64,000 nt of DNA, from positions 62,001 through 126,000 of the forward strand of contig NZ_JYNS01000012.1 of assembly GCF_000934725.1 (NCBI RefSeq), in the 5' to 3' direction. The stretch comes from Methyloterricola oryzae (GTDB taxonomy: Bacteria; Pseudomonadota; Gammaproteobacteria; Methylococcales; Methylococcaceae). Of this stretch, positions 3,185-63,158 are shown piece after piece (within the stretch, counting starts at the first letter, position 1; every line of letters starts with the position of its first letter). Made by a program: the position numbers and the translations under genes. Below the pieces are notes generated by a model. That model searched no databases and was not told where the DNA came from. It saw only the letters and a program-made list of their open reading frames with translations.

Positions 3185-3739
3185 CTAAGGCTCTCCGCAG
3201 GCCCGCGCGTGGCTGGTTTCCAAGGTCTTGTCGTTCTGGATGATGGTCAGTTCAACCGTCTGGCACTGGCCGGCGTCGGGCTTGCCCACGGCCTCGCCGT
3301 AGACCTCGAAATCCGCGTAGACCGCCTGCGCCTCTCCCAGCTTCCAGGCTCCTTGTACCACACCACGGCGCACGCTCTTGAACTCCTCGTTCTTTGGCAG
3401 GACGCCGGCTTCTCCGCTCGCCCGCCGGATACGCCCTTCCCCACAGGCTTCCCAGGTTTCCGAATAGCTCAGGTTCTGGTAGGTCACCAGCAGGGTCGCG
3501 CAGGCGCCACTTTCACCGGGGCTGTAGTCCACAACCACCGCCTCGCCGTTGAAATTGCCGGCGACAGGCGCCTCGGGCTTGTCCTCCGCCACCTTGGCCA
3601 GCAAAACCTGGGATGCCGTGAGGGCGTAATCGTCCGGCGGCGATTGCTGCGGCGCGCGAAACACCAGGGGCTCGCAACCCGCCGCCAGCAAAGCCAGCAG
3701 AAAACACCCTCTCCGCAGTGTCCATTTCAGGCGACCCAT
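3185..3739 (-). CDS. Lipoprotein of unknown function
   Basis: This 184-residue protein starts with a short charged segment, a hydrophobic stretch and the lipobox LLAAGC, so it should be a lipid-anchored envelope protein. I chose the ATG at 3739 because GGAGGA stands nine to ten bases before it; an upstream in-frame ATG would place the signal sequence too far inside. Beyond the lipobox the protein is rich in beta-type residues, with several Cys (ACATLL, EACGEG, AGQCQT, RACGEP) that could form disulfides. I do not recognise a family. It lies 66 bases after the secreted protein 3806-4981 on the same strand, probably one transcript ending at the 2990-3029 terminator. Confidence 0.85.
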   Translation of the reverse strand: MGRLKWTLRRGCFLLALLAAGCEPLVFRAPQQSPPDDYALTASQVLLAKVAEDKPEAPVAGNFNGEAVVVDYSPGESGACATLLVTYQNLSYSETWEACGEGRIRRASGEAGVLPKNEEFKSVRRGVVQGAWKLGEAQAVYADFEVYGEAVGKPDAGQCQTVELTIIQNDKTLETSHARACGEP

Positions 3740-56078: not shown

Positions 56079-56682
56079 GCATGCGGCTACGGGAAAAAGG
56101 CGCCTGTCCAAACGTTGCGGCGCCTATACTGTTGCGCTGGCCTTAGCGCCCTACCCTCATTCTGCCCTCAGCTATGCATCCGCATTGCATACGCTTCCGG
56201 ACCGTTCCTAACCGCCATGTGCGACCACCCGCCGAACGACTACCGGCCTCGCTGACCCTCATCGGCAAGGCTCCAGCCTAAGTGCAACTGCACCCGGCGC
56301 TAGCCCCGTTCCAGGTGGCGGGCCTGATGCGGCGTCACTGAATGAAGAGACAGGGATGCGCCGCCGCTAAGACTCCACGTCGCGCCGTATCGAGCTTCGC
56401 AGGCCCTGTTTAAGCAATCAGGACCCCGCCAGCGCTTGACCGACCAGCCACCGCTCAAGTCGTCTGAAGTCGGGTTTGTTCGATTCACACAGCAGCGTCG
56501 TGCATGTCTATGGAGACCGAAGCGGTGAAAGCCGATCTACCCTGCCTTTCGGATCGTCGATCAATCGAGTGCTGGTTCATGAACTGCGTTGATGCCGGCA
56601 TGAAAAGAAGTCATTTAACGCGGAGCTTCTCGTGAGGTTACCGTTAGCTTGAAAAAATTCACTCGCCTGATCGGAAACTCTC
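56079..56682. other. Intergenic region before the MRJP-like gene
   Basis: A hairpin AGGCGCC/GGCGCCT (56098-56104 with 56119-56125) soon after the hydrolase stop may end its transcript, though no U-run follows. The LysR-type box at 56600-56614 is listed separately. The central 400 bases hold no gene I can support. Confidence 0.45.
56600..56614. promoter_or_regulatory. LysR-type box upstream of the MRJP-like gene
   Basis: ATGA-N7-TCAT, a T-N11-A dyad, 68 bases before the start of the MRJP-like gene. The surrounding bases (CATGAAAA, GTCATTT, CGG) are nearly the same as at 58818-58832 upstream of pxmA. Confidence 0.55.
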
Positions 56683-57780
56683 ATGACGAAACGTATAGTT
56701 GGATTGATCTTACTAGCCGCCTTGGCTGGCAACGCCATGGCCGCAGAAAGCGGAAACTACGACATTGTTGCCAAGCTGATGCAAGGCCCGGGAAATGTCA
56801 CTGCGACCGACTCCGGGCGAATAATCATGAGTCAGCATCAGTTCTACGATCCGCAGTATTCGGTGGTCGAATTCCAGGGGAACGACTCGGTCGTACCTTT
56901 TCCCAATAAGGCCCTGAACGACCGAAGCGGACATGCGGATCTGACACTGGATTCCGTTCTGGGTATTCGGACGGACAACCAGGGCATCGTCTGGATGCTG
57001 GACAACGGCATGCGCAGTGGCATCACGCCAAAGCTCGTTGGCTGGGACACCAAGAACGACAAGCTTCACCGCGTCATCTATCTGCCGCCGCCGGTCGCGC
57101 CCAAGGACGCCTTCGTCAATGACTTTGCGATCGACGGCGGACGTAAGCGGATTTTCATCAGTGACCCGGCAGGAGGCGGCAACGCGGCGCTCATCGTGGT
57201 CAATCTGGAAACCGGCGCCGCCCGGCGTGTCCTGGAGGGGCATGTCGGCGTGGTACCGGAAAATGTCGATCTGATCATCGACGGCCACCCCGTTCAGGTC
57301 AAAGGCGCCGCCGGCCATCTGGTACGGCCCCATATCGGGGTGAACCCCATCACGGAAGACCTGAAGAACGAATGGGTCTATTTCGGCCCCATGCACGGCC
57401 TGAGTCTGTATCGCATCAAGGCGGCTGACTTGGCTGACGATAGCCTGGATTCAAAGACGCTGGCCCAGCGCGTGGAACGCTATAGCGCCAAACCCATTTC
57501 GGACGGCATCAGCATCGATCGGGACGACAACATCTACCTGGGCGAGTTGGCAGAAAACGCCATTGGCGTGATCAAGCCGGATCGAAGCTATCAGCGGCTC
57601 AGCCAGTGCCCCAATCTGTCCTGGGTGGACTCATTCAGCTTCGGCCCCGAAGGCAAACTCTACGGCGTGGTGAATCGCCTGCATCAATCCGCGACGCTCA
57701 ATGGTGGGGAGCCGCTCTCCAGGCCGCCCTATTTTCTGATCCAGGTCAAAGCCCTGGCTCCGGGCCTGCCAGGGCGATAA
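56683..57780 (+). CDS. Exported major royal jelly protein family (MRJP-like) protein
   Basis: A 365-residue protein with a signal peptide (MTKRIVGLILLAALAGNAMA) and a six-bladed propeller of the MRJP/yellow type: VWMLDNGMRSGITPKLVGWD, VNDFAIDGGRKRIFISDPAGG, DGISIDRDDNIYLGELAENA and WVDSFSFGPEGKLY. Bacterial members are sometimes called L-dopachrome tautomerase-related. They may bind small ligands or act as lactonases; no activity can be assigned. The gene is convergent with the LysR gene (2 bases apart) and carries upstream a box shared with pxmA. Confidence 0.9.
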   Translation: MTKRIVGLILLAALAGNAMAAESGNYDIVAKLMQGPGNVTATDSGRIIMSQHQFYDPQYSVVEFQGNDSVVPFPNKALNDRSGHADLTLDSVLGIRTDNQGIVWMLDNGMRSGITPKLVGWDTKNDKLHRVIYLPPPVAPKDAFVNDFAIDGGRKRIFISDPAGGGNAALIVVNLETGAARRVLEGHVGVVPENVDLIIDGHPVQVKGAAGHLVRPHIGVNPITEDLKNEWVYFGPMHGLSLYRIKAADLADDSLDSKTLAQRVERYSAKPISDGISIDRDDNIYLGELAENAIGVIKPDRSYQRLSQCPNLSWVDSFSFGPEGKLYGVVNRLHQSATLNGGEPLSRPPYFLIQVKALAPGLPGR

Positions 57781-57782
57781 GG

Positions 57783-58718
57783 TCAGGTCGAGTTCGTTTG
57801 TTGGTTCAGATCTTGGCAGACGTCCCAGATCTGTTCCCGCAACCAGCGGTGCGCCGGGTCACTCTCGCGTAACGGATGCCAGATCATCACCAGATCATAG
57901 CTGGGCAGTTCGATGGGTACCGGCACCACCCGCAACGGCGCCAAACGGACGAACTGCTCGGCGATTCTCAACGGCAAGGACAACAGCATGTCGGTGTTGG
58001 CCACGATGAACGGTGCGGAGAGAAAGTGGGGCACGATCAGCGCGATGCGCCGCTCCAACCCACGTTCGGCCAGCCAATCGTCGATCACCCCGGTCCGGGT
58101 TCCGGTTCGCGATATCAGCATGTGCTTCAGGCCGACATAGTCCTCCAGTGACACGGTATCGCCCTGAATGCTGGGGTGTTCCTGACGGAGTAAACAGGTC
58201 ATCCGATCTTCAAACAATTTCCGGCCATTCAGATAAGCAGCCGGTTTCAATATCGCCTCGAATCCGACCACGATATCCAACTCACCGGCTTCCAGCTCCT
58301 TCTCCGGAAATGGCAGATCCGTTCGTTTGACGTGGATATCGATGCCGGGCGCTTCCCTGGCAATGCGTTCGATCAAGGGCGGGATGAGCAGGAAATCCAT
58401 ATAGTCCGTCGCCGCCATGACAAAGCGGCGTTGACTCCTAGCGGGGTCGAACACCTCCGGTTGTCGGATCAGGAATTCAACCTCACGCAGAACAGCCCGG
58501 ACCGGCTCGATGAGCGCCAATGCCCGTTCGGTGGGTTTCATGCCGGACGGCGTCTTCACCAGCAAGGGATCGTCCAGTTGCTGACGAAGCCGTTGCAGCG
58601 TATGGCTCATGGCTGATTGCGTTACAAACATGCGTTCCGCCGCGCGGGATACGCTTTGCTCCTGCATCAGCCAATCGAAAGCTACCAGCAGATTCAAGTC
58701 GAACTGGCGTAATTCCAT
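57783..58718 (-). CDS. LysR family regulator, divergent from pxmABC
   Basis: A 311-residue regulator of the NodD/PcaQ-like size: helix-turn-helix MELRQFDLNLLVAFDWLM, QSVSRAAERMFVTQSAMSH and a C-terminal effector domain. I choose the ATG at 58718; a GTG one codon upstream is possible. GGAGACTGAG precedes it. It stands between an MRJP-like gene (convergent) and pxmABC (divergent), and both of those have a matching T-N11-A box upstream, so it is the best candidate for their regulator. The inducer is unknown. Confidence 0.92.
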   Translation of the reverse strand: MELRQFDLNLLVAFDWLMQEQSVSRAAERMFVTQSAMSHTLQRLRQQLDDPLLVKTPSGMKPTERALALIEPVRAVLREVEFLIRQPEVFDPARSQRRFVMAATDYMDFLLIPPLIERIAREAPGIDIHVKRTDLPFPEKELEAGELDIVVGFEAILKPAAYLNGRKLFEDRMTCLLRQEHPSIQGDTVSLEDYVGLKHMLISRTGTRTGVIDDWLAERGLERRIALIVPHFLSAPFIVANTDMLLSLPLRIAEQFVRLAPLRVVPVPIELPSYDLVMIWHPLRESDPAHRWLREQIWDVCQDLNQQTNST

Positions 58719-58817
58719 CACTCAGTCTCCAAAGTTACAGCAGTCTTTTCGCGCCATCGTATTGAGCCTTGCCTGTCCGTCACAACCGCGAGGCCCGTGA
58801 TTTTTATTCATACGGCC

Positions 58818-58832
58818 ATGAAAACTCGTCAT
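58818..58832. promoter_or_regulatory. LysR-type box in the pxmA/LysR divergent region
   Basis: ATGA-N7-TCAT, a T-N11-A dyad, 140 bases before pxmA and 100 bases before the LysR start. The flanking sequence is shared with 56600-56614. Confidence 0.55.
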
Positions 58833-58971
58833 TTCACACGGTGTGATGCAACGCGTAGTTTGTCGCCATCGTATCGCTCACAGGCTGGATACCAGGCCTC
58901 CCTCAACGTAGCCAGGTGATGCAGTGAGCGGTACGGCCCACTATCAACTTGAATCGTAGAGAGGATGCACC

Positions 58972-59724
58972 ATGGCGACTCACATACTCGATATTCCACC
59001 TCAACCCTATGCCGGTGAGAAAGCCAGGCTTGCCCGCGCCTATGACTATCTCATCCTGGTATTGGCCATCTTCCTGTTTATCGGCTCCTTTCATCTGCAC
59101 GTCGCACTGACCGTGGGTGACTGGGATTTCTGGCTGGACTGGAAGGATCGTCAGTGGTGGCCTTTGGTCACCCCGTTGATGGCGATTACTTTCCCGGCTG
59201 CCGTTCAGTCGGTCTTATGGACGAATTTCCGCCTGCCCCTCGGAGCCACCTTGTGTGTCGTTTGCCTGTTGATCGGCACCTGGATCACTCGGGTGTTCGC
59301 CTACCACTTTTGGAACTATTTCCCCATCAACTCGGTGCTGCCAGCGACCTTGTTGCCCAGTGCGCTGGTTCTCGACGTCATCCTGATGCTGAGCAACAGC
59401 CTGACCATAACCAGCATCTTCGGAGGAATGGCCTTCGCATTGCTGTTCTATCCCAGTAACTGGCCCATCTTCGCCATGTTCCATGTGCCGGTGGAATACG
59501 GCAATGCCCAATTAACCCTCGCCGACGTCTTCGGTTTTCAGTACATCCGCGCCGGCATGCCGGAATACCTGCGCTTGATCGAACGCGGGACCCTCAGAAC
59601 CTATGGCCAATACGCAACGCCACTCTCGGCCTTCTGTTCGGCCCTGTTGTGCACGCTGATGTATCCCCTCTGGTGGTACCTGGGGCAGTGGTTCGCCACG
59701 GTCCGCTTCGTAAAAAAGATCTGA
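58972..59724 (+). CDS. pxmA: Copper membrane monooxygenase subunit A (pXMO-type PmoA/AmoA relative)
   Basis: A 250-residue protein with seven hydrophobic segments. Strong PmoA/AmoA landmarks are LTVGDWDFWLDWKDRQWWP, VTPLMAITFPAAVQSVLW, FYPSNWPIFAMFHVPVEYG and IERGTLRTYGQYATPLSAF. It is the membrane subunit that packs beside PxmC in the trimeric enzyme, which uses copper and O2 to hydroxylate methane, ammonia or short alkanes; the true substrate of pXMO enzymes is not settled. The gene comes first in an A-B-C operon. A purine-rich AGAGAGGATG precedes the ATG. Confidence 0.92.
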   Translation: MATHILDIPPQPYAGEKARLARAYDYLILVLAIFLFIGSFHLHVALTVGDWDFWLDWKDRQWWPLVTPLMAITFPAAVQSVLWTNFRLPLGATLCVVCLLIGTWITRVFAYHFWNYFPINSVLPATLLPSALVLDVILMLSNSLTITSIFGGMAFALLFYPSNWPIFAMFHVPVEYGNAQLTLADVFGFQYIRAGMPEYLRLIERGTLRTYGQYATPLSAFCSALLCTLMYPLWWYLGQWFATVRFVKKI

Positions 59725-59739
59725 GTGGAGAATCCCGTC

Positions 59740-60972
59740 ATGCTGAAGATCAAAAAGCTGATTGCCGTCACCCTGTGGGCAGTGACCTGCCTGTTGGCCT
59801 CTCAAAGCAGCGTCTACGCCCATGGCGAAAAGGCGCTGGAGCCTTTCATCCGCATGCGCACCATTCAATGGTACGACGTACGCTGGTCGCAAGAACAACT
59901 CAAGATCAACGATGAAGTGGTCATCACCGGGAAATTCCACGTTGCCGAGGACTGGCCACGCAGTGTGCCAAAACCGGATGCCACCTATCTCAATGTGTCG
60001 ACGCCGGGCCCCGTTTTCATCCGCACGGAACGCTATTTGAACGGCCAGCCCTGGGTCAGTTCAACCGCATTGAAACTGGGCGGCGACTACGACTTCAAGA
60101 TCGTTCTCAAGGCCAGGCTGCCGGGGCGTTTCCACATCCACCCATTCTTCAACCTGCATGACGCAGGCTCGGTCATGGGACCTGGCCACTGGCTCGAAAT
60201 CAGCGGCGATCCGGCCGCATTCAGCAACCCGGTCAAGACCCTCAGTGGTGATGTGGTCGACATGGAATCCTACGGCTTTGCCAACGCGGTTTCCTGGCAC
60301 GTGTTCTGGATGGTGCTCGGCGCCACCTGGCTGCTGTGGTGGGTCAGACGGCCGCTGTTCATTCCCCGCTACAAGATGCTCCAGGCAGGCGATGAAAGCG
60401 CCTTGATCACGTCCCTGGACAAGACCATCGCCAAAGCCATACTGGTCGTCGTGCCGCTGTTCGTCTTCGGCGCGTATGCCGTGACGGACAGCCAGTATCC
60501 GAATGCCATTCCGCTGCAGGCCGCCCTCGATCAGATCGAGCCTTTGACTCCGGAGGTCAACAACGGCCTGATCCAGGTCAAGGTGAAACGGAGCGAATAC
60601 CACGTGCCGGGACGGGCGATGGTCATGACGGCGCAAATCCACAACCTCTCCGACCAACCCGTCCGGGTGGGCGAGTTTGCCAGCGGCAATTTGCGGTTCA
60701 TCAACTCCACGGTCGGAATGGCATACCAGGATCATGGCGATCCCCTGGTCGCGCAGACGGGTTTGAAGGTGGACTCCCCTGAGCCTATCCAGCCCGGGGA
60801 AACCCGCACCGTACAGATCGAAGCCGCAGACGCCCTGTGGGAGACGGAACAGTTGGACGGTTTATTCCGCGATGCCGACAGCCGTCTGGGCGGTTTGCTG
60901 TTCCTTTACGACGCAACGGGCAAGCGCTACGCGGCGAGCGTGGCCACCGCCGTCATTCCGCAGTTCAACTGA
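59740..60972 (+). CDS. pxmB: Copper membrane monooxygenase subunit B (pXMO-type PmoB relative)
   Basis: A 410-residue periplasmic copper subunit with two membrane helices. After the signal peptide ends in VYA the mature chain begins with His28 (HGEKALEPF). His132 and His134 (FHIHPFFN) complete the CuB site exactly at the spacing of His33, His137 and His139 of M. capsulatus PmoB. Of the separate bis-His site, His67 (KFHVAEDWP) is kept but the position of His48 is Gln43 (TIQWYD), so that site is changed. I use the ATG at 59740 because TGGAG precedes it and the signal peptide begins there; a GTG at 59725 is the alternative. It follows pxmA by 15 bases. Confidence 0.93.
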   Translation: MLKIKKLIAVTLWAVTCLLASQSSVYAHGEKALEPFIRMRTIQWYDVRWSQEQLKINDEVVITGKFHVAEDWPRSVPKPDATYLNVSTPGPVFIRTERYLNGQPWVSSTALKLGGDYDFKIVLKARLPGRFHIHPFFNLHDAGSVMGPGHWLEISGDPAAFSNPVKTLSGDVVDMESYGFANAVSWHVFWMVLGATWLLWWVRRPLFIPRYKMLQAGDESALITSLDKTIAKAILVVVPLFVFGAYAVTDSQYPNAIPLQAALDQIEPLTPEVNNGLIQVKVKRSEYHVPGRAMVMTAQIHNLSDQPVRVGEFASGNLRFINSTVGMAYQDHGDPLVAQTGLKVDSPEPIQPGETRTVQIEAADALWETEQLDGLFRDADSRLGGLLFLYDATGKRYAASVATAVIPQFN

Positions 60973-61027
60973 ATTCAAGTGACCGAACTGGACAACCAAC
61001 AACCGAAACTACTACGAGGAGAACATC

Positions 61028-61807
61028 ATGGCCGTTACATCACCAGAAATTCTGCCCATCCCCAGGGGGCAGCAAAAAACCTCGCTACCATGGTACAACC
61101 GGGATTTACATAAATACTTAGCCACCTTTGCCGGCCTTGCGGTGATGTATGTCGGCCTCAGGCTATATCAGGGCGCTTATGGCGTCCTGGCGGGGTTGGA
61201 TTCGACGGAGCCGGCCTTCGCGACCCATTGGATGCGCCTGTTCCATATCGAACTGGGCGTGCTGGCCCTGGTCTTCCCGGGGCTTTGGGGCTATCTCTGG
61301 TTTACCCGCGACCAAAATATGGATGCCATGACACCCAAGGAGGAAATCCGGAGGTACTTCACGCTGACCATGTGGATCAGCATTTACACCTTCGCCGTTT
61401 ACTGGGCGGGGAGCTATTTCGCCGAGCAGGATAATTCCTGGCACCAGGTCTCCATCCGCGACACGCCGTTCACCGCCAACCACATCATCGAGTTCTACTT
61501 CAACTTCCCCCTCTACGTCTTGCTGGGGGGATCGGCCTGGATCTACGCCAGAACCCGCCTGCCGCTTTACGCCAAGGGCATCTCCCTGCCACTGACTCTG
61601 GCGGTCATCGGTCCTTTCATGATTCTGGTCAGCGTGGGATTCAATGAGTGGGGACATACCTTCTGGTTTCGCGAGGAGTTTTTCGCCGCACCGATCCATT
61701 GGGGCTTCGTCATCGGCGTCTGGTTTGCGCTCGGTGTCGGTGGCATTTTGCTGCAACAAGTGATCCGTCTGGTCGAATTGCTGGATCAAATCGAAGACGT
61801 TCCCTAG
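61028..61807 (+). CDS. pxmC: Copper membrane monooxygenase subunit C (pXMO-type PmoC relative)
   Basis: A 259-residue membrane protein with about six helices. The ligands of the CuC site are all present at family spacing: Asp135 and His139 in AEQDNSWHQ and His152 in FTANHIIEFY. The ligands of the CuD site are also present: Asn206 and His210 in FNEWGHTFWF and His224 in AAPIHWGF. The enzyme core therefore looks intact. ACGAGGAGAAC precedes the ATG. It is last in the operon, 55 bases after pxmB, which is the reverse of canonical pmoCAB. Confidence 0.93.
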   Translation: MAVTSPEILPIPRGQQKTSLPWYNRDLHKYLATFAGLAVMYVGLRLYQGAYGVLAGLDSTEPAFATHWMRLFHIELGVLALVFPGLWGYLWFTRDQNMDAMTPKEEIRRYFTLTMWISIYTFAVYWAGSYFAEQDNSWHQVSIRDTPFTANHIIEFYFNFPLYVLLGGSAWIYARTRLPLYAKGISLPLTLAVIGPFMILVSVGFNEWGHTFWFREEFFAAPIHWGFVIGVWFALGVGGILLQQVIRLVELLDQIEDVP

Positions 61808-61910: not shown

Positions 61911-63158
61911 ATGGGCAACGGTAAATCATCCCCACGCGCTGTGCATTACGCCTGGATCGTTCTCGCGGTTACTTTCGTGACTTTGTTGGCGACGGCTGGC
62001 TTGCGCTCTGTTCCGGGCATCATCATCCCTTCTCTGGAACGGGAGTTCGGTTGGTCACGGGAATCCATCACCTTCGCGGTGTCAGTCAATCTGTTGCTGT
62101 TCGGTCTGGCCGGCCCTTTTCTCGGTCGGTGGATGGACCTCTACGGCCCGAGGGTGGTGATGCTGACAACGGCCGGACTCACCAGCCTGGGCGCCTTGGC
62201 GACCTTGTTCATGCACGCCACCTGGCAGATGACACTGTGTTGGGGCGTCATCATGGGCGCAGGTTCCGCAGGGTGCTCCATGGTCATGGGCTCGGCGGTG
62301 GTAAGCCGCTGGTTCATCGCCAGGCGCGGCCTGGCACTGGGCATTCTGGGTGCGGCGATGTCCGCCGGGCAGCTGATCTTTACGCCCATCCTGATGCACC
62401 TGGATATGACCTATGGATGGCGGTCGACGACCTTGTTCGTTGCCCTGATGACCGGCGTCGTGGCCTTACCCCTTATCTTGCTGTTGATGCGGGACACCCC
62501 TGCGAGCCTGGGACTCGGGCCGCTGGGTGACGAACCAAGTGCGGAGAAACTGCCAAAACCGGATCGTCATCCGATGAAACATGCGTTGCGCACGCGCGAA
62601 TTCTGGCTCCTGGCGTCGAGCTTCGGCATTTGCGGATTGACCACCTCCGGCCTGCTGCAAACGCACCTGATCCCCCATGGACTGGAACACGGCTTCTCCG
62701 AAATGACAATGGCGGCTTCGCTGGGAATGATGGGGGCCGCCGACATCATTGGCACGATCGGATCCGGCTGGATTTGCGACCGATTCGGAAAGCGCGGGCC
62801 ACTGGCGATTTATTACCTGCTGCGCGGCGCCTCATTGCTCCTTCTGCCTTTCATCGAGCAGTCGGAAATGCTCATGGCGTTTTCAGTGTTCTACGGGTTG
62901 AACTGGCTGTCCACAGTCCCGGCGACTTCGGCACTGACCGCGGATTTTTTCGGCAAACAAAACGTCGGTGTCGTGTTCGGATGGATCTTCTGCGCACATC
63001 AGGTAGGCGCAGCAATCGCGGCTTACGGAGCAAGCTTCATTCACACCTGGATGGGGAATTACTCGCCGGTTTTTATGGCTGCGGGGGCCTTCGCAATAAT
63101 CGCCACCGGATTGGTTTGGGGGATTCCCAGGAAATCTTTGAGCTTGGTTCGAGCCTAG
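61911..63158 (+). CDS. MFS transporter, monocarboxylate/oxalate-formate type
   Basis: A 415-residue membrane protein with about twelve hydrophobic segments; WIVLAVTFVTLLATAGLRSVPGIIIPSLEREFGWSRESITFAVS is the start of the family, shown here in part as SREFGWSR-type text, with GRWMDLYGPRVVM as the MFS loop signature and RWFIARRGLALGI. Such proteins carry small organic acids. It lies 103 bases after pxmC on the same strand behind a hairpin; co-transcription is possible but not sure. If it belongs to the pxm locus, it may move a product or substrate acid. Confidence 0.88.
   Translation: MGNGKSSPRAVHYAWIVLAVTFVTLLATAGLRSVPGIIIPSLEREFGWSRESITFAVSVNLLLFGLAGPFLGRWMDLYGPRVVMLTTAGLTSLGALATLFMHATWQMTLCWGVIMGAGSAGCSMVMGSAVVSRWFIARRGLALGILGAAMSAGQLIFTPILMHLDMTYGWRSTTLFVALMTGVVALPLILLLMRDTPASLGLGPLGDEPSAEKLPKPDRHPMKHALRTREFWLLASSFGICGLTTSGLLQTHLIPHGLEHGFSEMTMAASLGMMGAADIIGTIGSGWICDRFGKRGPLAIYYLLRGASLLLLPFIEQSEMLMAFSVFYGLNWLSTVPATSALTADFFGKQNVGVVFGWIFCAHQVGAAIAAYGASFIHTWMGNYSPVFMAAGAFAIIATGLVWGIPRKSLSLVRA

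Follow-up and report, generated by a model that had tools for sequence, protein, structure and literature searches.

The pxmABC operon of Methyloterricola oryzae lies in a conserved gene unit with a LysR-type regulator and a secreted beta-propeller protein

Introduction

Which member of the copper membrane monooxygenase family is encoded at positions 58972–61807 of the Methyloterricola oryzae DNA analysed here, and does it act alone or together with the products of the neighbouring genes? The window, as we call the whole stretch of 64,000 nucleotides, lies within one contig (C12, NZ_JYNS01000012.1) of a genome of 4,902,375 bases in 73 contigs. It is highly probable that the operon is pxmABC, encoding the monooxygenase pXMO, and that it forms the output of a self-contained, LysR-controlled unit in the order propeller gene, LysR gene (reverse strand), pxmA, pxmB, pxmC and MFS transporter gene. 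Tavormina et al. reportedly described pXMO (PxmABC) of gammaproteobacterial methanotrophs in 2011, and its function has been debated since then. A dedicated regulator, a genome-specific control site, and a co-regulated exported partner would give this debate a concrete experimental handle.

The operon itself is most probably not new, as it belongs to a known family, and a 2017 paper described both pmoCAB and pxmABC from M. oryzae 73aT (4.9 Mb, 73 scaffolds; PMC5604758). What is new is its membership of a conserved unit that regulates itself and includes a secreted propeller; for this unit we found no publication within the openly readable literature. The papers found there name pxmABC only, and none of them links pxm with LysR, royal-jelly or dopachrome-tautomerase proteins, or with the control site described below; subscription papers, such as Tavormina 2011 and Kits 2015, lay outside this scope.

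Identity and copper sites of the operon

The operon is composed of pxmA (58972..59724, + strand, 250 residues, PF02461 with 397 bits), pxmB (59740..60972, +, PF04744 with 531 bits), and pxmC (61028..61807, +, 259 residues, PF04896 with 312 bits). The open reading frames and the Pfam matches, which are far above threshold, bear out the description in an earlier note on this DNA of PmoA-, PmoB-, and PmoC-like subunits in the order A-B-C. PxmB has a signal peptide and relatives in the PDB (9pxf and 3rgb). Its best start is ATG 59740, which follows a GGAG motif, and an in-frame GTG at 59725 is the alternative. The PxmB residue numbers used here are higher by five than those of the earlier note, which counted from ATG 59740.

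The CuB, CuC, and CuD sites had been described as intact, and the alignments agree. PxmB contains the CuB ligands His33, His137, and His139 (28, 132, and 134 when counted from ATG 59740), and PxmC contains Asp135, His139, and His152 of CuC and Asn206, His210, and His224 of CuD. These residues are invariant in the aligned pXMO, particulate methane monooxygenase (pMMO), and ammonia monooxygenase (AMO) homologues (47–55 per subunit), with the sole exception of His224 in one truncated row. One ligand of the bis-His site of PxmB is replaced by Gln48 (Gln43 in the earlier count). The replacement had been seen correctly, yet it is no peculiarity of the window protein: glutamine occupies this position in 22/22 pXMO-type sequences and in seven of 11 AmoB, and is therefore a mark of the family. 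In alphaproteobacterial and NC10 PmoB, the position is occupied by asparagine or threonine.

In phylogenetic trees, subunits A, B, and C of the window are each placed inside the pXMO clade, with support of 98 (starred), 98 (starred), and 89, respectively, next to Methylobacter tundripaludum and Methylocystis rosea, both of them named carriers of pxm. They are apart from the pMMO of Gammaproteobacteria, Alphaproteobacteria, and NC10 and from the AMO of Betaproteobacteria and Nitrospira. The nearest relatives of PxmA, from M. tundripaludum SV96, Methylocystis rosea SV97, and metagenome-assembled genomes (MAGs), are 80–90% identical to it. Across 301 genomes of the order, PxmA identity separates a main clade (78–90%) from side groups (69–71% and 61–62%) and from canonical PmoA (at most 55%), with a clear gap. 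The trees, which the earlier note had proposed, thus support the identification of the subunits as pXMO (PxmABC), distinct from pMMO and AMO, with all three outside the canonical groups. The order A-B-C had also been taken as a mark of gammaproteobacterial pXMO operons; the pXMO identity stands and the restriction to Gammaproteobacteria does not, as Methylocystis and Methylocapsa have such operons (PMC6215863).

The window operon belongs to the same clade, in three subunits, as PxmABC of M. album BG8, M. denitrificans FJG1, and M. tundripaludum, shares their order A-B-C, and is likewise found beside pmoCAB. The canonical loci used for comparison have the order C-A-B. pMMO has the protein families and the CuB, CuC, and CuD ligands in common with the window, but it is 41–56% identical to pXMO, has the order C-A-B, and forms a separate clade, whereas pXMO has glutamine in place of one bis-His ligand. 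A canonical pMMO was rejected because the window does not group with PmoCAB and its order is not C-A-B. A hydrocarbon monooxygenase was likewise rejected: actinobacterial Hmo is 40% identical and lies far outside in the tree of subunit A, on which this comparison was made.

A conserved gene unit around pxmABC

The LysR-type regulator gene (57783..58721, −; PF00126 and PF03466) is divergent from pxmA. Beyond it, the propeller gene (56683..57780, +; PF03022) encodes a secreted six-bladed beta-propeller of the MRJP/2QE8 family, labelled 'L-dopachrome tautomerase-related'. An MFS transporter gene (61911..63158, +), similar in its profile matches to monocarboxylate and oxalate-formate carriers, is located 3' of pxmC. 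These are the neighbours that the earlier note had listed, and the presence of the LysR and MRJP-like genes is not incidental, as both are conserved beside the operon and have a control site in common with it.

The order propeller(+), LysR(−), pxmA, pxmB, pxmC, followed in Gammaproteobacteria by the MFS gene, recurs in relatives. The MFS gene follows pxmC in the gammaproteobacterial loci L012, L020–L023, and L232–L237, and was not found in the alphaproteobacterial loci of the unit. No further neighbour beyond the six genes is conserved in unrelated loci. The loci of M. tundripaludum SV96 and of the genome that matches published BG8 primers (see below) have the same six-gene arrangement and control sites as the window, with no difference in kind. 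Among the 301 genomes, 58 have a main-clade PxmA and 243 do not. The propeller (at least 64% identity) occurs in 55 of the former and eight of the latter, and the LysR in 56 and two, respectively (Fisher p <1e-46, a value that overstates the independence of the counts, since genomes of one order are related). The LysR gene is beside pxmA in 53/59 clade copies. The propeller gene is within 8 kb of pxmA in 52/59; several of the exceptions come from short contigs.

Some genomes that lack the PxmA clade keep propeller genes that are partial or contain stop codons (G143:C1:2134402-2136401; G179, G100, G117, G129, and G188, where G, C, and L numbers denote genomes, contigs, and loci of our set). They are apparently the remains of a lost unit; G143 also retains the LysR gene. 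In genus g25, a second LysR paralogue with 58–59% identity is located away from the unit (for example G115:C1:1102730, G066:C1:4912998, and G076:C50:94462), and in several genomes it contains an in-frame TAA.

The LysR-type box shared by two promoters

The intergenic region between pxmA and the LysR gene and the region before the propeller gene both contain the pattern ATGA-N7-TCATTTnACnCGG. The box upstream of pxmA (ATGAAAACTCGTCATTTCACACGG, 58818..58841, +) starts 154 bp before the start codon, and that upstream of the propeller gene (ATGAAAAGAAGTCATTTAACGCGG, 56600..56623, +) starts 83 bp before it. When only other genomes are counted, ATGAA-N7-CATTTNAC is present with at most one mismatch in 44/44 distinct pxmA promoters and 26/33 propeller promoters; the corresponding Markov-shuffled controls give 0.28% and 0.15%. 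Since the two promoters are not homologous, common descent of the intergenic DNA is no explanation for the shared box. Conservation is highest over the box, at approximately 1.3–1.6 bits per column compared with 0.1–0.8 in the flanks. A matrix derived from the pxmA promoters of other genomes ranks the two boxes first and second in the whole window, and a matrix derived from the propeller promoters selects the same two sites in reversed order.

The box is specific to the unit. In the 4.9-Mb genome, the exact matches of the extended pattern are the pxmA and propeller sites only. A count over 18 other carriers gave 32 exact matches, 23 of them inside the unit, and a single match to the reversed pattern. 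The nine matches outside the unit mostly fall on start codons or within genes; at least six of them are on gene starts (five of RhlB-type helicase genes and one of an argF-like gene). None of the 42 control promoters (pmoC, pxmB, MFS, and LysR-less pXMO paralogues, including a few duplicates) has a box with up to two mismatches. The box is present where the LysR gene is present, and absent from the LysR-less pXMO paralogues. A T-N11-A dyad is typical of LysR sites; the box has such a dyad, and the LysR gene is divergent from pxmA across the intergenic region in which the box lies. Because box and gene co-occur, the LysR protein of the window may be expected to bind the box.

A weaker second half-site (GTGATTTTTATTCAT, 58797..58811, +) precedes the pxmA box by 21 bp; a half-site at 21 or 23 bp is present in 26/45 homologous promoters. 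The propeller-gene box is likewise preceded, at 21 bp, by a weaker half-site (ATGAACTGCGTTGAT, 56579..56593, +), which other genomes do not conserve. Copies of the box with one mismatch occur elsewhere in the genome, one (L164 2453-2476; G000:C2:422952-422975, −) preceding a serine-glyoxylate aminotransferase gene by approximately 100 bp, which is either a chance match or a further target, and another near a nucleotide-sugar epimerase-like gene (L165). A scan for sigma-70 promoters and terminators gave no more matches than expected by chance.

Proposed mechanism, signal, and substrate

In the mechanism that we propose, the LysR protein would bind the box before pxmA, which is also before its own gene, and the second box before the propeller gene, and would switch the propeller gene and pxmA on together. 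The inducing signal is most likely tied to nitrite or nitric oxide (NO) and low oxygen, judging from published expression in a member of the unit. pXMO, a trimeric copper membrane monooxygenase, would oxidise a small substrate, most likely methane, with O2 in the membrane, and the exported propeller would work beside it in the periplasm. The MFS gene has no box of its own and may therefore be read through from pxmC, probably on the same transcript.

In M. album BG8, nitrite raised pxmA 19.8-fold at 72 h, a response for which hypoxia by itself did not suffice (PMC4594100). The pxmA primers used for quantitative PCR in that study match a genome (G094) that has the complete unit and both boxes. 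Because of this response to nitrite, the LysR protein probably answers a signal linked to nitrite or NO. A study of M. tundripaludum 21/22 reported joint changes of 'PxmABC; genes 3483 to 3486' (PMC6977074), a set of four that agrees with pxmABC and a single adjoining gene.

Several observations weigh against this scheme. In other genomes, the propeller promoter does not retain the second half-site at 21 bp, and three of the 33 propeller promoters, all from Methylocystis, have no recognisable box with up to three mismatches. nirS was not found in this genome, although it is present in 17 of 18 sampled pXMO genomes, a count that covers pXMO carriers only, so that no association is claimed. A nirK-like gene (L244 658-2164; G000:C31), whose product would end in a cytochrome-type domain at the C-terminus, is divided between two overlapping frames and appears frameshifted. 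A denitrification signal is therefore not secure for this strain. The sites that separate pMMO from AMO are divided in pXMO into 13 that resemble pMMO, 13 that resemble AMO, and 15 that resemble neither, and give no decision on the substrate.

Methane is taken as the default because the named carriers of the pXMO clade that we met are methanotrophs. A serious rival possibility, which we regard as less likely, is that the unit is as described, but pXMO oxidises a short-chain alkane, a ketone, or a nitrogen compound, and the LysR and MFS proteins handle this compound or its product. LysR regulators commonly sense a pathway metabolite, the MFS protein resembles monocarboxylate and oxalate-formate carriers, and pXMO has private residues such as Asn136, which directly follows the CuC ligand Asp135 and corresponds to glycine in pMMO and alanine in AMO. 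Furthermore, PMO3, a copper membrane monooxygenase homologue from Methylacidiphilum, has been reported as an acetone monooxygenase (PMC8630023). A non-methane substrate fits less well with the methanotrophic lifestyle of the named main-clade carriers, and with the M. denitrificans data, whose published interpretation is a methane monooxygenase that serves as an alternative when oxygen is low (PMC6215863). A MAG from Lake Kinneret was described as having only pxmABC (PMC11218250), which also speaks for methane, unless it reflects assembly loss, and the MFS gene that would handle the compound was not found in the alphaproteobacterial units.

More tentatively, the unit could constitute a four-protein pXMO system, in which the propeller would be an obligatory periplasmic partner of the monooxygenase, one dedicated LysR sensor would control both, and the ligand of this sensor would reveal the true, possibly non-methane, substrate or signal. 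The unit would be a mobile cassette transferred from gammaproteobacterial to alphaproteobacterial methanotrophs. We consider this extended reading possible but doubtful.

Linkage of the neighbouring genes and annotation as ammonia monooxygenase

If the genes were ordinary neighbours, the propeller and LysR genes would hitch-hike with pXMO and the motif would belong to another, global regulator. A single horizontal founding event could have kept the order without function, and the pXMO-type operons L024, L025, and L214 (70%) and L027 and L028 (61%) have no adjacent LysR gene and no box. However, the order has been retained over 20 to 40% protein divergence, in two bacterial classes, and on a plasmid, while no other neighbour is conserved in unrelated loci. 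The near-confinement of the motif to the unit argues against a global regulator, the box accompanies the LysR gene and is missing without it, and the propeller gene recurs in a different arrangement in the distant XMO61 operons. We therefore hold mere hitch-hiking to be quite improbable.

A true ammonia monooxygenase, which the NCBIfam and PGAP names would make of the operon's product, is very improbable: the proteins of 58972–61807 pass the cut-offs of the AmoA/B/C_BACT equivalogs NF041557, NF041640, and NF041641, RefSeq applies the amoABC label to related copies, and pXMO and AMO lie on one side of a starred branch in the tree of subunit A, but AMO and pXMO form separate, well-supported clades in A, B, and C, the order is A-B-C instead of C-A-B, the carriers are methanotrophs with canonical pmo, and identity to betaproteobacterial and Nitrospira AmoA is only 47–51%. 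AMO shares protein families and ligands with pXMO, and most AmoB have glutamine at the bis-His position, but AMO hosts are nitrifiers; an AMO identity was rejected on the trees and the gene order. The AmoABC naming by NCBIfam and RefSeq is thus not supported by phylogeny. Because the AmoA/B/C_BACT models accept pXMO proteins, RefSeq gives pxmABC operons the name ammonia monooxygenase, and nitrifier surveys that use RefSeq-style annotation will be misled by it. The pXMO copies of Methylomagnum ishizawai, for example, are called amoABC (NZ_AP019784.1 106382-109193, L237).

The secreted beta-propeller protein

The propeller protein matches PF03022 with 54 bits (cut-off 19.8), has a propeller fold, and begins with a signal peptide that was read from the sequence. 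It is 52% identical to 2QE8 (Ava_4197 of Anabaena variabilis, a 'putative hydrolase' whose function is putative only) with TM-scores of 0.85/0.92. The next structural relatives are royal-jelly proteins, dopachrome conversion enzyme, and SMP-30/DRP35 lactonases. Asn146-Asp147 and Asp274-Gly275, among others, are invariant to 2QE8 and would suit a metal or active site; a few private polar residues distinguish the pXMO-linked propellers from 2QE8. The protein is probably a metal-dependent hydrolase or lactonase-like enzyme, or else a ligand-binding partner.

Distribution of the unit and related operons

A distant pXMO-type operon (XMO61, 61% PxmA identity) occurs in Methyloglobulus and its relatives (L027 2683-5473, L028 6582-9384, and L215). 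The propeller gene comes first in it, on the same strand and before A-B-C, and the LysR box is absent. This arrangement in L027 and L028 gives independent support to a functional tie between propeller and monooxygenase. Some genomes have an additional pXMO-type operon of approximately 70% identity without LysR, box, and propeller (L025, L214 at G173:C1:719505, and G205:C1:2904243, the last of which contains a TAA).

The trees of propeller, LysR, and PxmA are congruent and place the alphaproteobacterial copies beside the lineage of the window (support 92, 96 (starred), and 93), as would be expected if the unit had been transferred as a whole. The unit of M. ishizawai is carried by the 274-kb plasmid pRS11DPr1. 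The pXMO unit thus moves between bacterial classes and onto plasmids. Copper genes of the CopC and NlpE types (L237 5629-5988 and 20587-21105) are located approximately 9 kb or less from the plasmid-borne unit (NZ_AP019784.1).

The search for canonical pmo genes in the M. oryzae genome, which the earlier note had suggested, found two copies of pmoA/pmoB elsewhere, which share 44–50% identity with the copy in the window. The genome also has four more PmoC-type genes, all partial and mostly at contig ends.

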